From contig JAUNAP010000005.1 of the NCBI GenBank assembly GCA_030527545.1, forward strand, positions 62,001 to 126,000: DNA of 64,000 nt. The letters are read 5' to 3'. A program made the translations under genes and the position numbers. Of the stretch, positions 46,052-54,085 are shown in pieces; the stretch's first letter is position 1, and each line of letters opens with the position of its first letter. The DNA is from Actinomycetaceae bacterium (lineage in GTDB: Bacteria; Actinomycetota; Actinomycetes; Actinomycetales; Actinomycetaceae). The notes under the pieces were generated by a model. The model had not been told where the DNA came from and did not search any database. It saw nothing but the letters and a program-made list of their open reading frames with translations.

Positions 46052-46832
46052 GATTACGCCCCTCGTCCCTCACGGCAAACCCAGCAGCGGCTAGCGCCTC
46101 TTTCACCTCGCCGATCGTCAGTTCACCAAAATGGAAAACGGAGGCTGCGAGGACCGCGTCAGCGCCGGCTCGTGCCGCATCGACGAAATGGGAGGGTTCA
46201 CCGGCTCCGCCGGATGCGATGAGGGGGACGTCGACTGTGTGTCGGACTGCTTCGATGAGCGCGAGGTCGAACCCCGTTTTCACTCCGTCGCTATCCATAG
46301 AGTTGAGGAGAACTTCGCCTGCTCCCCGTTCGACGGCGTGCGTTGTCCATTCAAGGGCGTCGATACCGGTGGCACGGGTGCCTCCGTGGGTCGTCACTTC
46401 CCATCCCGAAGGGGTCGGTTGGGAGGTGGCGCGGCGGGCGTCGACCGACAAGACGATAACCTGTCTGCCGAATTGCTCGGCGATGTCGGAGATGAGCTGG
46501 GGACGCTCGATAGCTGCCGTGTTGAGGCCGATTTTGTCGGCGCCGCGACGCAGTCTCGCGGCGACGTCGTCGACGCTGCGCACTCCCCCGCCCACGGTGA
46601 GAGGGACGAACACTTCTCCGGCTGTCTCTTCGATCACGTCCATCATGGCTTCGTGGCCGCGTAGGGACGCGGAAATGTCGAGGAAGGTGATTTCGTCTGC
46701 TCCGGCGCTATCGTAGGCACGGGCGAGTTCGACAGGGTCCCCCGCGTCGCGTAGTCGGGTGAAGTTCACGCCCTTGACGACGCGGCCGTCGCTGACGTCG
46801 AGGCACGGGATGACTCGGATGGCGAGGCTCAT
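46044..46832 (-). CDS. hisF: Imidazole glycerol phosphate synthase, HisF subunit
   Basis: The 262-aa TIM-barrel cyclase forms imidazole glycerol phosphate and AICAR using ammonia from HisH. Catalytic aspartates are in [15 protein letters not shown] (about residue 12) and in [16 protein letters not shown] (about 138); the phosphate sites VGGGVRS and [11 protein letters not shown] are intact. The ATG overlaps the stop of the FKBP-like gene (ATGA), and the 3' end overlaps hisI. hisH and hisA are elsewhere. Confidence 0.96.
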
Positions 46833-48310
46833 GATTCCTGTGATCCCTTCGTCGCCGTCGTTTCTAATACTGCGAGGATATCGACGACAACGATGAGCGT
46901 GTCGTCACCTTTAGCTTGCTCGGGAGGGACAACGATGAGCACACGCGAGCCTACGCGTTGGTCAGATAGTTGTTCCCTCAGTCCGGGCATTGCGCGAGCA
47001 AGATCGATGACCTGCGGTCCCTTGCCTGTCCATGTGTTAGTCATTTCGTCGTGGCCGTGCCACTTCCAGGCGATGAAGTTGGCGACGACGCTTTGCCCGT
47101 CTCGTACCTGTGCGCCTTCACCTGCTCGCAAAACTTTGATGTAGGCGGAGGACGGTGGCTCGTCGAGTGTGCTCTCGAGCGCTGGCGGATCGGAGGGAGC
47201 GATGGTGGCGGGCGCGCCTTCCTCAGGCTCGGTCGGTTTGCCGACGGCGCGAGTAGGCAAGACATCGATGACGTCAATTTCCATGGCCTGGCTTGCGCCG
47301 CGCGCAACGGGGCGCCTTAGGGCGAGGCGGGATCCGACGCGCTGGCCGACCACTGCGCGGACGACGTCGGGGGTGAGCGTCTCCTCGTCGACGCGGCCGG
47401 CGAGATAGTGAGGGGCGTCGCCCGAAGACAAGAGCTTGCCTGTTTGCCCGTCGAAGACGGTCAGTCGCACGAGCACGGGATCGCCCTCGCGCAGAGGATC
47501 ACCTTCGCCTTCGGTGACGACGGTGGTCTTTGCAAAAGTCAAAGGCAGGGGCGCCTCCAGGGAGACGACGGGGACGGTCGTCGTGTCTTCGGTGATGGAG
47601 ATTCGCGAGGACACGCCCGCCGGGTGCGAGCCACGATAGAGGTCCCATACCGCCATCGCAGCGATACCCACTGCGACGACGACCGCGGCGATGACAACGA
47701 GTGGCCACATGCGCACGATCCGGCGAAACAGCGACGGTTTCTTGACCCGGTTGTGGTCTTTGCGTGACGGTAGTCGGCGTCGTGACTGATCGGTGTCGTC
47801 TCGAGAGAGTCGACCGGTCAGCGTCTCGTCGTCCCCCTCGGCAAGGGGGCCTTCGGTCTCTTCGTAGAAGGCGGGGGTTCGCGAGATGGCCTCAGGAAGC
47901 GTCGCTTCGTCCTCGTCAGGATAAACGAGCTCGTAGTCGTCGTAGGGCTCGGCGGGAGAATAGTAGTCGTCGGCGATGATGCCGCGTTCTGGGTCGCTCA
48001 CACCGATGTCTAAGGTGTCGGCGTCTTCCTCGTCTGCTTCGTCGTAGGCCCCGAGTTCGTCGAGATCGTAGACGAGCCGTTCAGGTTCTGGGAAGCTGCG
48101 TTCGTCATCGGCGTAGGTGGCCTCGGTCGTGGGAATCATGGCCTCGGGCGGAACATACGTCGGTTCGGAGTAGTCAGGCACGCTCCCGTAAGCTTCTTCC
48201 GGAGAGGTGAAAGGCACGCCCTCGCGTACGGATGAGAGCATGTCCTCGTAGATCCAGCGTTCGCGTTCCCCCTCGGTCAAGGGGACGTGCCTTCGATTCG
48301 TCGGGGTCAC
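46829..48310 (-). CDS. Membrane-anchored protein with acidic cytosolic region and two FKBP-like domains
   Basis: The 493-aa protein has about 195 residues rich in Asp, Glu, Tyr and Pro, then a basic stretch and one membrane span near residues 199-222 ([19 protein letters not shown]). A 270-residue extracytoplasmic part follows with two FKBP-type folds (about 250-345 and 375-490). These are recognised from '[19 protein letters not shown]...', '[14 protein letters not shown]', '[14 protein letters not shown]' and '[30 protein letters not shown]'. Key active-site aromatics look degenerate, so prolyl isomerase activity is uncertain. FKBP genes follow pafA in Streptomyces too. GTGA overlap couples it to pafA and ATGA to hisF. 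The acidic region might bind a partner; that is inference. Confidence 0.72.
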
Positions 48311-49662
48311 TGCTGGTCCTCCATGTCGGCGATGAGAGCCTCAACGTCGGGATTGTCGCTCGCCAAAGGGTCGGCCAGGGTGAGCGTGGGTCGCCTCGAG
48401 TCGTTGAGACGAATATGGAGCCAATCGACGCTGACGTCGCGGCCGTGTTCCTTGGCCGCTGCGAGAACCCGGGCACGCAGGTGCGCCCTCGTCGTCGTCG
48501 GTGCTCGGTGGCGCGCCTGCTCAACTTCAGCGTCGGTAACGACCGAGGTCAATGCGCCTGCCGCGGCCAGACTGGGGGCGAGCGAGGCGTCGGTGATGTC
48601 ATGGTAGGCCAGCTCGAGTCGCGTTTGTTCGGCCTTTGTCAGTGACCGGGCGGCGCGTGCGCTTGCACGCTGAAGGAGCCTGTACTTGATGGCAAAGTCG
48701 AGTTCGGTCTCGATCGGCCCCCACTGCTGCGTAGCTAGTGCCTCATTGCCTCGCGCCCACAGATCCATAACCCGCAGGTCGAGTTCGTCATCGCATTCGA
48801 GGTTAAGCACACGTTCACGATAGATTTCCAGCAGCTGCGGGATGGTGAGACGCCGACCGTCACGGAGTTCAACAGGTGTCTTCAATGAAGGATCTCGCGA
48901 GAGCTCACGCAGCGTGCGCAGCGGCTGGGCAAGGCACAGGTCAGAGATATCGATGCCACGCTCGACGGCCGTGAGCATCCGGCAGGTCGACCCGATCTTG
49001 AGCATGGTGGTCGCCTGAGACACCGAGGAGTCCCCGACGATGACGTGGAGTCTGCGGTAGGCGGAGGCGTCGGCAAGCGGTTCGTCCCGGGTGTTAATGA
49101 TCGGACGAGTCCTCGTTGTCGCGGCCGAGATCTCGTCGTCGATTGCTTGGGCGCGTTGGGTGAGATGGTAGGAGCCGTCGGGAGCGACCCACCCGGCACC
49201 GACGAGGGCCGATCGTGCGACGAAAAAGGACACGAGCGCGTCGGCCATGGCGCGAAACTGTGGCGATCGCTTGACGAGATAGTTCTCGTGACAGCCACAC
49301 GAATTCCCGACGGCATCGACGTTGTTCTTGAACACGTGGATGCGCCCGCCTACGCCGCGTTCTCTCATACGCCGGGTAGCCTGGGCAGCGAGGGAAGCGA
49401 GGATACGGGACCCGGCGGCGTCTTGGGCGATGAGCTCTCGAATCGTCGAGCATTCAGCAGTGGCATATTCGGGGTGTGCGCCAACGTCGAGATAGAGCCG
49501 TCCCCCGTTGACGGTGAAGACGTTGGTGGATCGATGACGAGCGAGCACGGGCGTGAAGAGCTCGCGAGCGGCGTGCTCGGCGTCGAGGGGCGGCTTCGCA
49601 CCCTGGGGGCCAACGCAGGCGATGCCGTACTCAGTCTCGATGCCAAAAACGCGTCGCTTCAC
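48307..49662 (-). CDS. pafA: Pup ligase (proteasome accessory factor A)
   Basis: The 451-aa carboxylate-amine ligase joins the C-terminal glutamate of Pup to lysines of target proteins. It shows the glutamine-synthetase-like core: RRVFGIETEYGIACVG at the start, RLYLDVGAHPEYATAEC with the catalytic aspartate near residue 57, FKNNVDAVGNSCGCHENYL near 110, and NTRDEPLADASAYRRLHVIVGD. It lacks the Dop-specific loop, which separates it from dop. Its GTG start overlaps the pup stop (GTGA), coupling ligase to substrate. In mycobacteria prcB and prcA stand between pup and pafA; here there is no space for them. Confidence 0.96.
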   Translation of the reverse strand: MKRRVFGIETEYGIACVGPQGAKPPLDAEHAARELFTPVLARHRSTNVFTVNGGRLYLDVGAHPEYATAECSTIRELIAQDAAGSRILASLAAQATRRMRERGVGGRIHVFKNNVDAVGNSCGCHENYLVKRSPQFRAMADALVSFFVARSALVGAGWVAPDGSYHLTQRAQAIDDEISAATTRTRPIINTRDEPLADASAYRRLHVIVGDSSVSQATTMLKIGSTCRMLTAVERGIDISDLCLAQPLRTLRELSRDPSLKTPVELRDGRRLTIPQLLEIYRERVLNLECDDELDLRVMDLWARGNEALATQQWGPIETELDFAIKYRLLQRASARAARSLTKAEQTRLELAYHDITDASLAPSLAAAGALTSVVTDAEVEQARHRAPTTTRAHLRARVLAAAKEHGRDVSVDWLHIRLNDSRRPTLTLADPLASDNPDVEALIADMEDQQ

Positions 49663-49838
49663 TGCCCGCCCTTTTGCACAAAACCCTCGACGAAGGCGAC
49701 GGCGTCTTCTTCCAAAACGGTATCGATGTGGTCGAGGAGGTCGTCAAGACCGGCGCTCGTGTGCTGGATGAGTCCTGCTGCTTCCTCGGATTCGGTACCG
49801 CCAGACGCACCGCCGGCGTGGACCTGTTCCTGGGTCAT
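49659..49838 (-). CDS. pup: Prokaryotic ubiquitin-like protein Pup
   Basis: The 59-aa product starts MTQEQVHAGGASGG, carries the central ARC-binding helix region (GLDDLLDHIDTVLEEDA) and ends VEGFVQKGGQ. The terminal Gly-Gly-Gln is the hallmark; Dop must deamidate the last residue to Glu before PafA can ligate it. The protein is strongly acidic and slightly shorter than the 64-residue mycobacterial Pup. GGAGGA lies just upstream of the ATG. It is a small gene that a longer open frame hides. The stop overlaps the pafA start, and dop ends 28 bases upstream. Confidence 0.96.
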   Translation of the reverse strand: MTQEQVHAGGASGGTESEEAAGLIQHTSAGLDDLLDHIDTVLEEDAVAFVEGFVQKGGQ

Positions 49839-49866
49839 GTCTCCTCCTTCGTCGTGTGTCTCTACT

Positions 49867-51447
49867 CTAGTGGGTTGCGCCTTCGGCAAGGAGAGCCACG
49901 AAAGCGTCAACGTCGCCGCTAAGGGCAGCCGCGCGCGCGGGCGCGGTGGGCGCGGCTGCGGGGTCGGGCAGGGCCACCCGGGTGAGCCGGGGCTGGCCGG
50001 TATCGAAGATAAGGCTCGTCCACGAGGCCTCGGTGAGCCCAGGCAGATAGCGCGCGGCGAGCCCCCGGCAGGCGGCGCGCGTCGTCTGCGGTGGGGTGGT
50101 CGTTGCGACGGCGATCTCATCGGGGCTGGCGAGGCGGCGGATGCGCCCTGCTTTTTCGAGGTGCCCCAGAGGCGATCGGTCGGGGCGCAGATCGGCCCAC
50201 CTGAGATCGAGCGCCTGAAGTCTGGGGTCGGCCCAGGTGGTGTTCCAGCGCTGACGCATGGCGTTGAACAGCTCGTACTTGGCAACCCATTCGATGTCGG
50301 TTGCGGCAGCGATCGGGTCCGTGGCCAAGACGTTAAGCACGCGCTCCCACTGGGCAAGGACGTCGACACGTTCGTCGTCGTCGGCGACATGGGGCAGATC
50401 GGCGATTCGCTCGAGGTAGGCCCGTTGGATATCGAGAGCGCTCATAGCGATTCCACCCACGGTGTCCATGGTGTGGGTGAGCGTAAGGTCGTGGGAGAAG
50501 GCAGCGGTTTCACACACGATATCGCCGCAGGCCGTGAGATCGTCGAAAGCATGGCCATGGCCTGTTTCGATTGCCCACAAGAGGGCGGAAAGCGTCCCGA
50601 TCCTTAGATACGTAGACACGTCAAATTGATTGGCGTCTCCGCAGATAATGTGGAGCCTCCGGTGGGCTGAAGCGTCGGCGTGGGGCTCGTCGCGGGTGTT
50701 GATGAGCGGCCTGTTGAAGGTCGTTTCGAGGCCGATGGTGTTTTCGATGTAGTCGGCTCGCTGAGAGATTTGGAAGCCAGCCTCATCGCTACGTTGGCCT
50801 ATGCCCACGCGACCGGCGCCGCAGATGAGCGGGCGCGTAGCGAGAAAAGGCAGCGCGGCGCGGGTGAGCGTGGAGAAATCGACGTCTCTGCGAAGTAGGT
50901 AGTTTTCGTGCGCGCCGTAGGAGGCACCCTTGCCGTCAACGTTGTTCTTGAACAACACGATGGGATCACCGAGCGCGGCCGCCGCCGCCATGGCGTCGCG
51001 GGCGATAGCGTCACCGGCTCGGTCGTAGATGACGGCCTCTCGAACGCCGCGGCACTCTGGTGAGGAGTACTCCGGATGCGCATGGTCGACATAGAAGCGG
51101 GCACCGTTTGCCAGGACGCAGGCGTGGGCGCGAGGCAGGCGAGCCTCGTCGCGGCTGGTGCGTTCAAGCTCAGTGAGGGTCGGTCCTGAGGGCGCGGGCC
51201 GGCTCGGATCGTCGGTGAGCAGGGAAGGGTCGGCGCTCGCACGCGCGAGCCTGTGACCGCGCTGATCCTTGAGCGGGTCCTCCCCGCGGTAGTCCCAACC
51301 GACGGGCGGCGCGTCGATGCCTCCTCGAGAGGAGGGATAGTAGGCAGCGACGAGGCTCGAGGAGGCTGCTATCGCCGAGCGGTAGGGATCGCCCTGCGTG
51401 ACGATCCCGTACTCGGTTTCTATCCCAACGATGCGGCGGTTATCCAT
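49867..51447 (-). CDS. dop: Pup deamidase/depupylase
   Basis: The 526-aa protein converts Pup-Gln to Pup-Glu and removes Pup from substrates. It shares the PafA fold (VGIETEYGIVTQGDP; RFYVDHAHPEYSSPEC; FKNNVDGKGASYGAHENYL; NTRDEPHADASAHRRLHII) but has an insertion around residues 40-90 (GGIDAPPVGWDYRGEDPLKD onward), the Dop loop that distinguishes it from PafA. ATG 51447 is chosen because AAGGAG is four bases upstream and the product then begins at the conserved core; an upstream extension is a shadow of arc. It lies eight bases after arc. Confidence 0.95.
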   Translation of the reverse strand: MDNRRIVGIETEYGIVTQGDPYRSAIAASSSLVAAYYPSSRGGIDAPPVGWDYRGEDPLKDQRGHRLARASADPSLLTDDPSRPAPSGPTLTELERTSRDEARLPRAHACVLANGARFYVDHAHPEYSSPECRGVREAVIYDRAGDAIARDAMAAAAALGDPIVLFKNNVDGKGASYGAHENYLLRRDVDFSTLTRAALPFLATRPLICGAGRVGIGQRSDEAGFQISQRADYIENTIGLETTFNRPLINTRDEPHADASAHRRLHIICGDANQFDVSTYLRIGTLSALLWAIETGHGHAFDDLTACGDIVCETAAFSHDLTLTHTMDTVGGIAMSALDIQRAYLERIADLPHVADDDERVDVLAQWERVLNVLATDPIAAATDIEWVAKYELFNAMRQRWNTTWADPRLQALDLRWADLRPDRSPLGHLEKAGRIRRLASPDEIAVATTTPPQTTRAACRGLAARYLPGLTEASWTSLIFDTGQPRLTRVALPDPAAAPTAPARAAALSGDVDAFVALLAEGATH

Positions 51448-51455
51448 GATGCTCC

Positions 51456-52991
51456 TTAATCGAGGGCACGAGAGATGGGGATCACCTCGGTCACGCGTTC
51501 GCCTCGCATGCCGAGCGTGCGGCCCCATTGCTGCGGATCGTAGGCCCCCGCGAGTGCCGCAGATTCACCGATTTCTTGGGCAAGCGCCCTGTCGATGTGA
51601 CGGATATCGAGGCCGTCATCGGCGTGGGTGAGCACGTCCTTAATGGCGTGGTGCTTGGCTCGCTGGATGATACCGGCAATCATCGCGCCGGAAACGAGGT
51701 CGCGCATGTAGCCGGTGGTTTGGCGGCCGCTGGCCCAGGTGACGGTGACAAGGGCGTTGTCAGGCTCGGTTTGCCACAAGACGTCGATGAGGTGGTCGAC
51801 GAGATGATCGCGTGCACCGGCTGGGGTGGCGGCGTGGCGTAGGAGGCGGGTGGAAAAAGGAATGGATGCCGCAAGGTGAATCCGGGCGATGTCGCGAGCG
51901 CCGTCTCGTGTAGGCCTGTCGATGGCGATACGACGGTCGAGACGTCCGGGGCGTAGCACCGCGGGGTCGATCATGTCTTCACGGTTGGACGCGCCAATGA
52001 CGATGACGTTGTCGAGGCCTTCGACACCGTCAATTTCGGCGAGGAGTTGAGGGACGACGAGGGTCTCAATGTCGGTGGAAATGCCGGCGCCCCGCGTGCG
52101 AAAGAGGGCTTCCATCTCGTCGAAGAAGATGACGACCGGGTGGTCTTCGGCGGCGAGTTCACGGGCGCGGGCGAAGAGGGCGCGAATATGACGTTCGGTC
52201 TCACCGACGAATTTCGACAGCAGCTCGGGGCCTTTAACCGAGAGGAAGTAGGCACCTTCGACGCCGCCCAAGGAGGAGGCGATGGCGCGCGCTATGAGAG
52301 TCTTTCCACATCCGGGGGGCCCGTACAAGAGGATGCCTTTGGACGGGGTGAGCCCAAAACTGCGGTAGAGATCGGGGTGGCGGAAAGGCATTTCGACGGT
52401 GTCGCGGATGAGGGCGATGTGGTGGTCGAGCCCGCCGATCTCGGCGTAACTCACGCGCGGTATCTCGGGAGTGAGCATCTGTTCGACGTCGGCGCGCTCA
52501 ACACGCTCGAGCCCGACACGGGCTTGCAGATCGGCGAGGAGAGTATCACCGGCCCCAACGGGGTGGCATCTCGGAGTGAGGGTGAGGATGATGCTGCCGG
52601 TGGCCGAGGTTTCGACAAGAGCCCTGCCGTCGGGAAGAATCTCCTTGACACCGACGGTTTCTCCGGTGGATGGGGGCGGGACCTGGGCAACCAGAACGAG
52701 GTCGGAATTGATAAGTCCGTAGTCTCCTGCTGCGATGCTCGCCGCCGTGGAGGCAACGCTTACTCGCTGGCGGCGGCCGTGGTTGGAAACATCGGCGCGC
52801 GTCCCCTCGCGCGCAAGTACGGCCACGTGGGTCAGCGGCGGGTCGGCCAGGGAGTCGAGGACGATGTTGAGTTCGGTGAGCTTTTCTCGCGCCGTGGCAA
52901 GCGCACGGGTGAGGCGCGCGTTTTTCTCTCTCACGCTCGCGAGTTCTCGGCCGAGTGCTGAGTCTCGTTGACTGGCGGGAATCTCGCTCAC
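51456..52991 (-). CDS. arc: ARC/Mpa AAA+ ATPase (Pup-dependent unfoldase)
   Basis: The 511-aa ring ATPase has an N-terminal coiled coil (about residues 12-48), two OB-type segments (about 55-165) and an AAA+ module with Walker A GPPGCGKTLIARAIA near 221, pore loop KFVGETERHIR near 255, Walker B VVIFFDEMEALF near 290 and sensor GASNRED. The coiled coil binds Pup in mycobacterial Mpa. It is shorter than Mpa and ends in PISRALD, not in the Gln-Tyr-Leu tail that docks Mpa on the 20S proteasome. With no prcBA here, it probably works as a stand-alone unfoldase, as in Corynebacterium. Start and stop overlap or abut trmI and dop. Confidence 0.95.
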   Translation of the reverse strand: MSEIPASQRDSALGRELASVREKNARLTRALATAREKLTELNIVLDSLADPPLTHVAVLAREGTRADVSNHGRRQRVSVASTAASIAAGDYGLINSDLVLVAQVPPPSTGETVGVKEILPDGRALVETSATGSIILTLTPRCHPVGAGDTLLADLQARVGLERVERADVEQMLTPEIPRVSYAEIGGLDHHIALIRDTVEMPFRHPDLYRSFGLTPSKGILLYGPPGCGKTLIARAIASSLGGVEGAYFLSVKGPELLSKFVGETERHIRALFARARELAAEDHPVVIFFDEMEALFRTRGAGISTDIETLVVPQLLAEIDGVEGLDNVIVIGASNREDMIDPAVLRPGRLDRRIAIDRPTRDGARDIARIHLAASIPFSTRLLRHAATPAGARDHLVDHLIDVLWQTEPDNALVTVTWASGRQTTGYMRDLVSGAMIAGIIQRAKHHAIKDVLTHADDGLDIRHIDRALAQEIGESAALAGAYDPQQWGRTLGMRGERVTEVIPISRALD

Positions 52992-54085
52992 AGGTCCTCC
53001 TTTGTTGTCTCGCCTTCCTTATCGTAGGTAGACCTGGGCGATGCCGCTAGCGGCGTGGGGTCCTCCCCCGCCATGCCGCTGCTCCATCTCCCTCGCCTGG
53101 CGACGGCGTCACGGCGGACGCGGCGTAGTTTTTTGGCGGAAATGGGCTTTTGGCCAGCATCCGACTCGCTCCAACCTTCGGTGTCATCCCACTGTCCGGC
53201 CTTACCTTCGGCAGCCTTTTGGGGACGTGTCTTCTTGCGGGGCGGTCGACATCCCGGGGCGAGCGTGCGTGCCATGACGAGGAAGCCGGTGTGACCAACC
53301 ATAGAGTGTTCGGGGCGCACGGCAAGTCCCTCCACGTGCCAGGCGCGCTGAATGGTCTCCCAGGATTCAGGCTCGCTGAAACGCTCGGTGAGGCGTAGGT
53401 CCTCGACGAGCCTCGACATTTGGGTGACGGTAGCAACATAGGCGACGAGAACGCCGCCGGGGGCGAGGAGGTCGGCAACAGCCTGCAGGTGTTCCCAAGG
53501 GGCGAGCATATCGAGGACGCACCGGTCGTAGTATCCACGCGGCAGGGTTCGCGCACGCTGGGCAAGATCGTCGACAATGAGCTCCCAGGCCGGATGGGCT
53601 CCACCGAACCACAGTTCGACATTGGCCGCGGCGATGTCGGCGAATTCTTCGCGCAGCTCGACGCTGGTGAGGTGCCCGTTGACGCCGACAGCGGCAAGGA
53701 GAGCCATCGACATCGCCCCCGACCCGGCGCCGGCTTCGAGGACACGGGCGCCTTCGAAGATATCGGCCAAACCAATAATTTGACCCGTGTCCTTCGGGTA
53801 GATGATTGTAGCGCCGCGCGGCATCTGCAGGCTGTAGTCCTGCAGACGCGGCCTCATGGCCACGAATTCGCGTCCCTCGCGACTCGTCACGACGGTTCCC
53901 TCCGGCGCCCCGATGAGATCGCCTAGGGGGAAGGATGCCTTGTTGACGTTGAACCATCCCTTTTCCGTCAGGGTGACCGTGTAGGCCCGTCCCTGGGCGT
54001 TTTGGAGCCGTACCCTCTCGCCTATCCGGAAGGGACCGCGTCTGGAGGCCGGGCCGCACGGCGTGGTCTGGGTTGTTTCACTCAT
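52988..54085 (-). CDS. trmI: tRNA (adenine-58-N1)-methyltransferase TrmI
   Basis: The 365-aa protein has the TrmI layout: an N-terminal beta-rich domain (GERVRLQNAQGRAYTVTLTE), the conserved FVAMRPRLQDYSLQMPRGATIIYPKD, and a Rossmann methyltransferase with VLEAGAGSGAMSMALLA near residue 115, DRCVLDMLAPWEHL and a C-terminal basic tail of about 90 residues (RPPRKKTRPQKAAEGKAG onward). It makes m1A58 in the T loop. trmI directly before arc is conserved in pupylating actinobacteria. TACGAT at 54092-54097 lies six bases before the ATG, suggesting a leaderless start for the whole chain; AAAGG is also present. It overlaps arc by four bases. Confidence 0.93.
   Translation of the reverse strand: MSETTQTTPCGPASRRGPFRIGERVRLQNAQGRAYTVTLTEKGWFNVNKASFPLGDLIGAPEGTVVTSREGREFVAMRPRLQDYSLQMPRGATIIYPKDTGQIIGLADIFEGARVLEAGAGSGAMSMALLAAVGVNGHLTSVELREEFADIAAANVELWFGGAHPAWELIVDDLAQRARTLPRGYYDRCVLDMLAPWEHLQAVADLLAPGGVLVAYVATVTQMSRLVEDLRLTERFSEPESWETIQRAWHVEGLAVRPEHSMVGHTGFLVMARTLAPGCRPPRKKTRPQKAAEGKAGQWDDTEGWSESDAGQKPISAKKLRRVRRDAVARRGRWSSGMAGEDPTPLAASPRSTYDKEGETTKEDL

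Follow-up and report, generated by a model that had tools for sequence, protein, structure and literature searches.

The DNA investigated in this study, a stretch of 64,000 nucleotides to which we refer as the window, is located on contig C6 of an Actinomycetaceae genome that comprises 1.75 Mb in 20 contigs and is 80.65% complete. It harbours the genes arc, dop, pup and pafA as four intact genes on the minus strand, which have kept their catalytic motifs and whose reading frames stay open across about 4.7 kb (48307-52991; Table 1). The junctions, as read from the DNA, are tight. The trmI/arc, pup/pafA and pafA/ORF 46829-48310 boundaries each consist of a 4-bp overlap with the sequence GTGA, while arc and dop are separated by a gap of 8 bp containing GGAG and dop and pup by one of 28 bp containing GGAGGAG. 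With these overlaps and short gaps carrying GGAG-type sites, the region extending from trmI to the FKBP-like reading frame looks like a single operon. The terminal frame, for which a Pfam search returned no match, is possibly co-transcribed with pafA. A relative also stands after pafA in a congener of the organism (G001), and FKBP genes near pup loci, including those of Streptomyces, are described in an excerpt of a previous study (PMC2588565).

Table 1. Features of the pupylation locus and its neighbourhood in the window.
Feature	Position	Strand	Description
trmI-type tRNA (adenine) methyltransferase gene	52988..54085	-	upstream of arc; PF08704 and PF14801
arc	51456..52991	-	AAA+ unfoldase of the Mpa/ARC type (511 aa); start codon GTG; C-terminus PISRALD without QYL tail
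dop	49867..51447	-	Pup deamidase/depupylase, 526 aa
pup	49659..49838	-	59 aa, C-terminal GGQ
pup stop/pafA start overlap	49659..49662	-	GTGA; site of prcB-prcA in proteasome-bearing relatives
pafA	48307..49662	-	Pup ligase of 451 aa; start codon GTG; overlaps pup by 4 bp
downstream ORF, weakly FKBP-like	46829..48310	-	overlaps pafA by 4 bp; scores 26 bits with NCBIfam PRK10902 (cut-off 215)

The identity of the encoded proteins is reflected in their matches to profile models and, for ARC, PafA and Dop, in alignments with solved relatives that cover most of their length. PafA scores 422.8 bits with PF03136 and 512.7 bits with TIGR03686, the latter value being below the curated cut-off of 551.3 and far above the 310.5 obtained with the Dop model, and it matches the Pup-ligase structures 4b0t and 4bjr with an E-value of 1.9e-97. 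Its sequence contains GIETEYG and YLDVG, with the Glu-x-Glu motif and the active-site Asp in place. The Asp of YLD aligns with an Asn in chain 4bjr, which we take to be an active-site mutant. Dop reaches 528.6 bits with TIGR03688 (cut-off 492.3), matches the Dop structures 9cku, 5lrt and 4b0r and carries GIETEYG and YVDHAHPEYS, which, together with YLDVG of PafA, we regard as the catalytic motifs of the two enzymes. Pup was recognised by PF05639 (51.4 bits) and TIGR03687 (58.5 bits); since it ends in GGQ, its deamidation by Dop is expected to precede ligation. ARC scores 580.1 bits with TIGR03689 (cut-off 504.75), and in a phmmer comparison its residues 13-503 align with the proteasome-associated ATPases 7ljf and 7px9 at an E-value of about 4e-122. 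The start of this alignment at residue 13 suggests the presence of an N-terminal coiled coil, and at residue 503, its other end, the match to Mpa-type chains breaks off immediately before the tail VIPISRALD. We assume GPPGCGKT at position 224 and VVIFFDE at 286 to constitute the Walker A and Walker B motifs and KFVGE at 260 the pore loop. The OB domains were detected by one Pfam model with a score of 24.5 (cut-off 23), whereas the other, with 21.5, remained just below its cut-off of 23.4. The assembled 80.65% of the genome contains one ARC and two PF03136 proteins, one Dop and one PafA, and our searches have ruled out a second copy of ARC, Pup, Dop or PafA in this assembly and with it a second ARC/Mpa with a docking tail.

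In all eight proteasome-bearing relatives from the order whose loci were compared (G037, G040, G041, G042, G043, G053, G056, G058), prcB and prcA directly follow pup, and pafA was recognised after prcBA in seven of them, with none found in the remaining 2.5 kb of the G042 locus. Reading frames, Pfam and NCBIfam models and motifs thus bear out the original prediction, which had described Pup (ending in GGQ), PafA, Dop and ARC as intact and the four-base overlap of pup and pafA as placed where prcBA would otherwise reside. By name, the closest relatives of PafA belong to Schaalia and Actinomyces, alongside two records with doubtful titles. The records L010 (Xylanimonas cellulosilytica 352_XCEL) and L011 (Sanguibacter keddieii 250_SKED) contain Schaalia-like pup loci with a shared ARC end, PIGTVK, and their titles look wrong.

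As to the proteolytic core, PF00227, a model that covers the 20S proteasome and also HslV, found no match in the assembled part of the window genome. As this assembly is incomplete, we have therefore extended the search to the genomes of the family, where the model was found in none of 213 Actinomycetaceae and consequently in none of the 199 of good quality (completeness of 90% or more, contamination of no more than 5%). Pup was found in 207 of the same 213 genomes and ARC, at an E-value of 1e-100, in 202. The predicted lack of prcA and prcB elsewhere in the genome thus holds for its assembled 80.65% and throughout the family, where the proteasome-free state is apparently universal, and we infer that the loss of the 20S core dates back to the root of Actinomycetaceae or precedes it. 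In a sample of 59 genomes from the order, 37 of the family and 22 from other families, PF00227 was detected in 17, all outside Actinomycetaceae. In a sample of 216 genomes from the class, ARC was found in 183 and PF00227 in 175. ARC without PF00227 was encountered in nine of these genomes (the window genome, G000, and G046, G237, G242, G300, G341, G350, G359 and G386) and PF00227 without an ARC match in one (G277). ARC without the 20S core so recurs outside the family. Of these genomes, the drafts of G237 and G242 are fragmented, and PF00227 is present in G260, which belongs to the same genus as G237.

The relationship between the loss of the core and the C-terminus of ARC turned out to be less strict than anticipated in the original prediction, where the two losses were described to agree. 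They do so in the window genome, whose ARC ends in VIPISRALD without a QYL motif, and in other families, where none of 39 ARC rows without prc in the locus ends in YL, 35 of them being from Bifidobacteriaceae. The ARC of the congener G001, ending in RPAQK, also has no YL. Among proteasome-bearing rows, 16 of 18 end in YL, the exceptions being G041 (DPDLL) and G056 (RQVEA; loci L167 and L164). Within the family, the 98 genomes whose ARC ends were read comprise 19 with YL, 15 with LI or LL, one with FL and 63 with only other ends, where one YL genome and one LI/LL genome also have an ARC with a different end. In G015 and G226, two of these 19, the YL end belongs to the ARC of a second cassette described below, whose clade also includes the only ARC of G030. 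A general rule by which the loss of the tail tracks the loss of the proteasome is thus ruled out by the 19 of 98 genomes with YL but no 20S core and by the two of 18 proteasome-bearing rows without YL, and the comparison across actinobacteria has upheld the missing QYL of the window ARC but not a strict link between tail and core. The YL-bearing ARCs of a family without a PF00227 match also depart from a statement in the excerpted part of PMC3511204, according to which the proteasome motif is missing from the ATPases of organisms that have no proteasome.

Across the 11 genomes of the genera g23, g8 and g14, the ARC tree shows no change in the terminal tripeptide GYL. Three changes each were counted at sites -4 and -5, none at the Pro of -6 and one or two at -7 to -9, compared to three to seven at each of the sites -12 to -25. 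Since GYL is unchanged and the likely start of dop is located downstream of the arc stop codon, the YL end seems to be maintained as protein sequence. ARC ends of the type GYL or DYL without a 20S core in the family are found in L146 and L226-L229 (g23), L128 (G008), L135 (G014) and L230-L232 (g9). The LI and LL ends of 15 family genomes resemble a conserved motif. Their codons coincide with an apparent ribosome-binding site and the start codon of dop in, for example, G027 (L149) and G119 (L250), where ARC ends in GLI, and in G220 and G221, and in such loci the end may be a translation signal rather than a protein motif, whereas the LI/LL codons of G017, G019, G029 and G141 do not coincide with signals for the start of dop. 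On the proteasome-bearing side, G041 retains 20S and Bpa although its ARC has no YL end. This ARC is joined in the tree by those of G044 and G046, both from genomes without PF00227 (SH-aLRT 93, not starred), where the long-branch join of G046 and G041 may be false. G041 and G056 may be intermediates, in which ARC was uncoupled before the core was lost.

We consider it probable that the locus encodes a complete set of pupylation functions operating independently of the 20S core, whose loss we place no later than the root of the family. The uncoupling of a complete Pup system from the 20S proteasome, as originally proposed, is supported by the intact genes, the missing PF00227 match and the missing QYL end. 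In the most likely working, which we derive from the conserved parts and by analogy to known cases, Dop would convert Pup-GGQ to Pup-GGE, which PafA would attach to lysines. A hexamer of ARC would bind the tagged proteins via its N-terminal coiled coil, thread Pup and pull the target apart, be it by unfolding, the disassembly of an oligomer or extraction, and it would then release the target rather than pass it on to a proteolytic chamber. Dop would finally take off the tag, thus rendering the modification reversible. An enhancement of depupylation by Mpa in vitro, reported in the excerpt of PMC3511204, is offered there to explain why the ATPase would be retained when no proteasome is present.

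As an alternative, ARC could pass unfolded pupylated proteins to another protease such as ClpP1P2 via contacts other than QYL. The family lineages that keep a constrained YL end in the absence of 20S do hint at a docking partner, but the ARCs of the window and of G001 have no such end, and the end of the window ARC offers nothing in favour of the recruitment of a different protease. The lack of a PF00227-family chamber in the window genome, HslV included, speaks against such a partner as well, although weakly, as the search was one for this chamber family, and we regard a handover in this organism as improbable.

For the reversible tagging that we favour, a precedent is found in Corynebacterium glutamicum, where ARC disassembles pupylated ferritin, as described in excerpts of two reviews (PMC8223512, PMC12288473). 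This precedent stands as a known proteasome-free case but it does not transfer directly. In the window genome, at its 80.65% completeness, neither a ferritin nor a bacterioferritin was found, and the sole match to PF00210 is a protein of 146 amino acids (G000:C13:42463-42873). Its best NCBIfam model is Dps (88.8 bits, cut-off 114), and its best PDB matches are Dps or Dps-like chains, which characterises it as Dps-like. Moreover, nine of 36 relatives from the family (G007, G011, G012, G015, G021, G024, G027, G031, G032), all at least 94% complete, have no PF00210 match despite containing Pup and ARC. If their systems work, the release of ferritin cannot be the sole role, which suggests that it is not the only proteasome-free function.

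A further question concerns the possibility that the locus is a relic with little function, which decays after the loss of the proteasome. Between the window and G001, the proteins share 55-61% identity, with 50% in the last segment of dop. Differences amount to 0.26-0.38 at codon positions 1 and 2 and to 0.52-0.57 at position 3 of arc, dop, pup and pafA, in a comparison to this one congener that includes three segments of dop and residues 1-357 of pafA. This pattern of substitution is a purifying one in all four genes and indicates that selection keeps the proteins. Signs of decay were encountered in the faster divergence from G001 of arc, dop and pafA compared to hisF, trpE and trmI, where the nuclease gene upstream, with 58% identity, resembles the Pup genes, in the long branch of the window ARC (an end branch of 0.76 in the tree) and in G001 itself, where the frame of dop changes twice and that of pafA once (L119:4831-7971), while arc, trmI, hisF, trpE and the nuclease gene are each matched in a single frame. 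These frame changes may be assembly errors or decay. Additionally, four of the 213 family genomes (G026, G123, G155, G160) contain a match to neither Pup nor ARC, and the system is thus dispensable in the family. However, frames open across 4.7 kb, retained catalytic motifs, the purifying codon-position pattern and the presence of Pup in 207 of 213 genomes all argue against a relic, which we consider to be quite improbable.

Bpa (PF10759), a further activator of the proteasome, was found in 14 of the 17 order genomes with PF00227 and in none of the 42 without. Although the protein is said in the excerpt of PMC8223512 to occur in every species bearing 20S, the order sample contains three misses (G043, G047, G056). 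With PF00227 in none of 213 family genomes compared to Pup in 207, and with Bpa also absent, a gap in the assembly is an unlikely cause of the missing 20S genes. The idea that prcBA resides at an unusual place in the unassembled part of a genome that is only 80.65% complete is thus exceedingly improbable and was rejected on our searches of the genome itself, of the family and for Bpa, in addition to the usual site being assembled and empty and ARC having no docking end.

Some relatives contain more than one system. Pup is matched twice in 48 of the 213 family genomes, and so is ARC in exactly these 48. In the second loci that were read, a full-length second ARC was found in 33 of the 48, a second Dop in 28 and a second PafA in 24, with 19 genomes containing all three. 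The second proteins form exact clades in the respective trees of Dop (30 rows, SH-aLRT 100), PafA (26 rows, SH-aLRT 99), both including G030 and G105, and ARC (35 rows, SH-aLRT 98), indicating that the second arc-dop-pup-pafA cassette is separate and monophyletic, with a history of its own within the family. Its Pups have a core sequence of their own (21 rows), and the single ARC of G030 and that of G105 are of this type. Examples include L206 (G078), L213 (G138), L220 (G142) and L125 (G006). No conserved partner gene stood out beside the second cassette, where many of the called reading frames are probably spurious antisense frames. Two complete systems in one genome are described for Leptospirillum ferrooxidans in the excerpt of PMC3511204.

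In its composition, the system of the window belongs to an already known kind, the proteasome-less pupylation of the Corynebacterium type, which is known here from its genes: a Pup of the GGQ/GGE type, PafA, Dop and ARC, adjacent pup and pafA, no prcA or prcB and no QYL. It is distinct from the Pup-proteasome system proper, as PrcA and PrcB were found neither in its own genome nor in any of the 213 of the family. The excerpt of PMC3511204 describes actinobacteria that possess the pupylation genes in the absence of prcBA, with pup placed immediately before pafA, and according to that of PMC6466877, about half of the sequenced actinobacteria retain the pupylation enzymes after losing the genes of the core. 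The locus of C. glutamicum, as described in PMC3511204, shares with the window the four proteins, pup directly before pafA, the missing prcBA and an ATPase without C-terminal proteasome motif, whereas its Pup ends in glutamate rather than in GGQ (PMC3511204) and ferritin is a substrate there, compared to the Dps-like protein that was the only find of the ferritin family in the window genome. Mycobacteria, Rhodococcus and Streptomyces contain related Pup, PafA, Dop and ARC/Mpa in a gene order that is equal apart from prcBA, in contrast to the window genome without PrcA/PrcB, without Bpa and with an ARC without QYL end. The loci of Bifidobacteriaceae that were read also contain Pup, PafA, Dop and ARC but no prcBA; they differ in a lower score of their ARC against that of the window, in the GGE end of most Pups and in the approximately 1 kb between dop and pup. 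Literature searches naming Actinomyces returned no title on pupylation in Actinomycetaceae.

Tentatively, and with distinctly less confidence than in the proteasome-free working of the locus itself, pupylation in Actinomycetaceae might be viewed as a family-wide, degradation-independent modification, with ARC acting as stand-alone remodeller here and docking by a conserved YL end onto a non-20S partner elsewhere, and with the system doubled, in about one-fifth of the genomes, into two parallel cassettes that evolve separately. Proteasome-free pupylation offers a place to learn about roles of Pup other than marking proteins for destruction. Whereas the window alone repeats a known pattern, the 213 genomes without PF00227 provide natural contrasts, in ARC tails that are kept or lost, in the presence or absence of a ferritin-family gene and in the occurrence of one or two Pup cassettes, which make the question of a non-degradative role of Pup testable.
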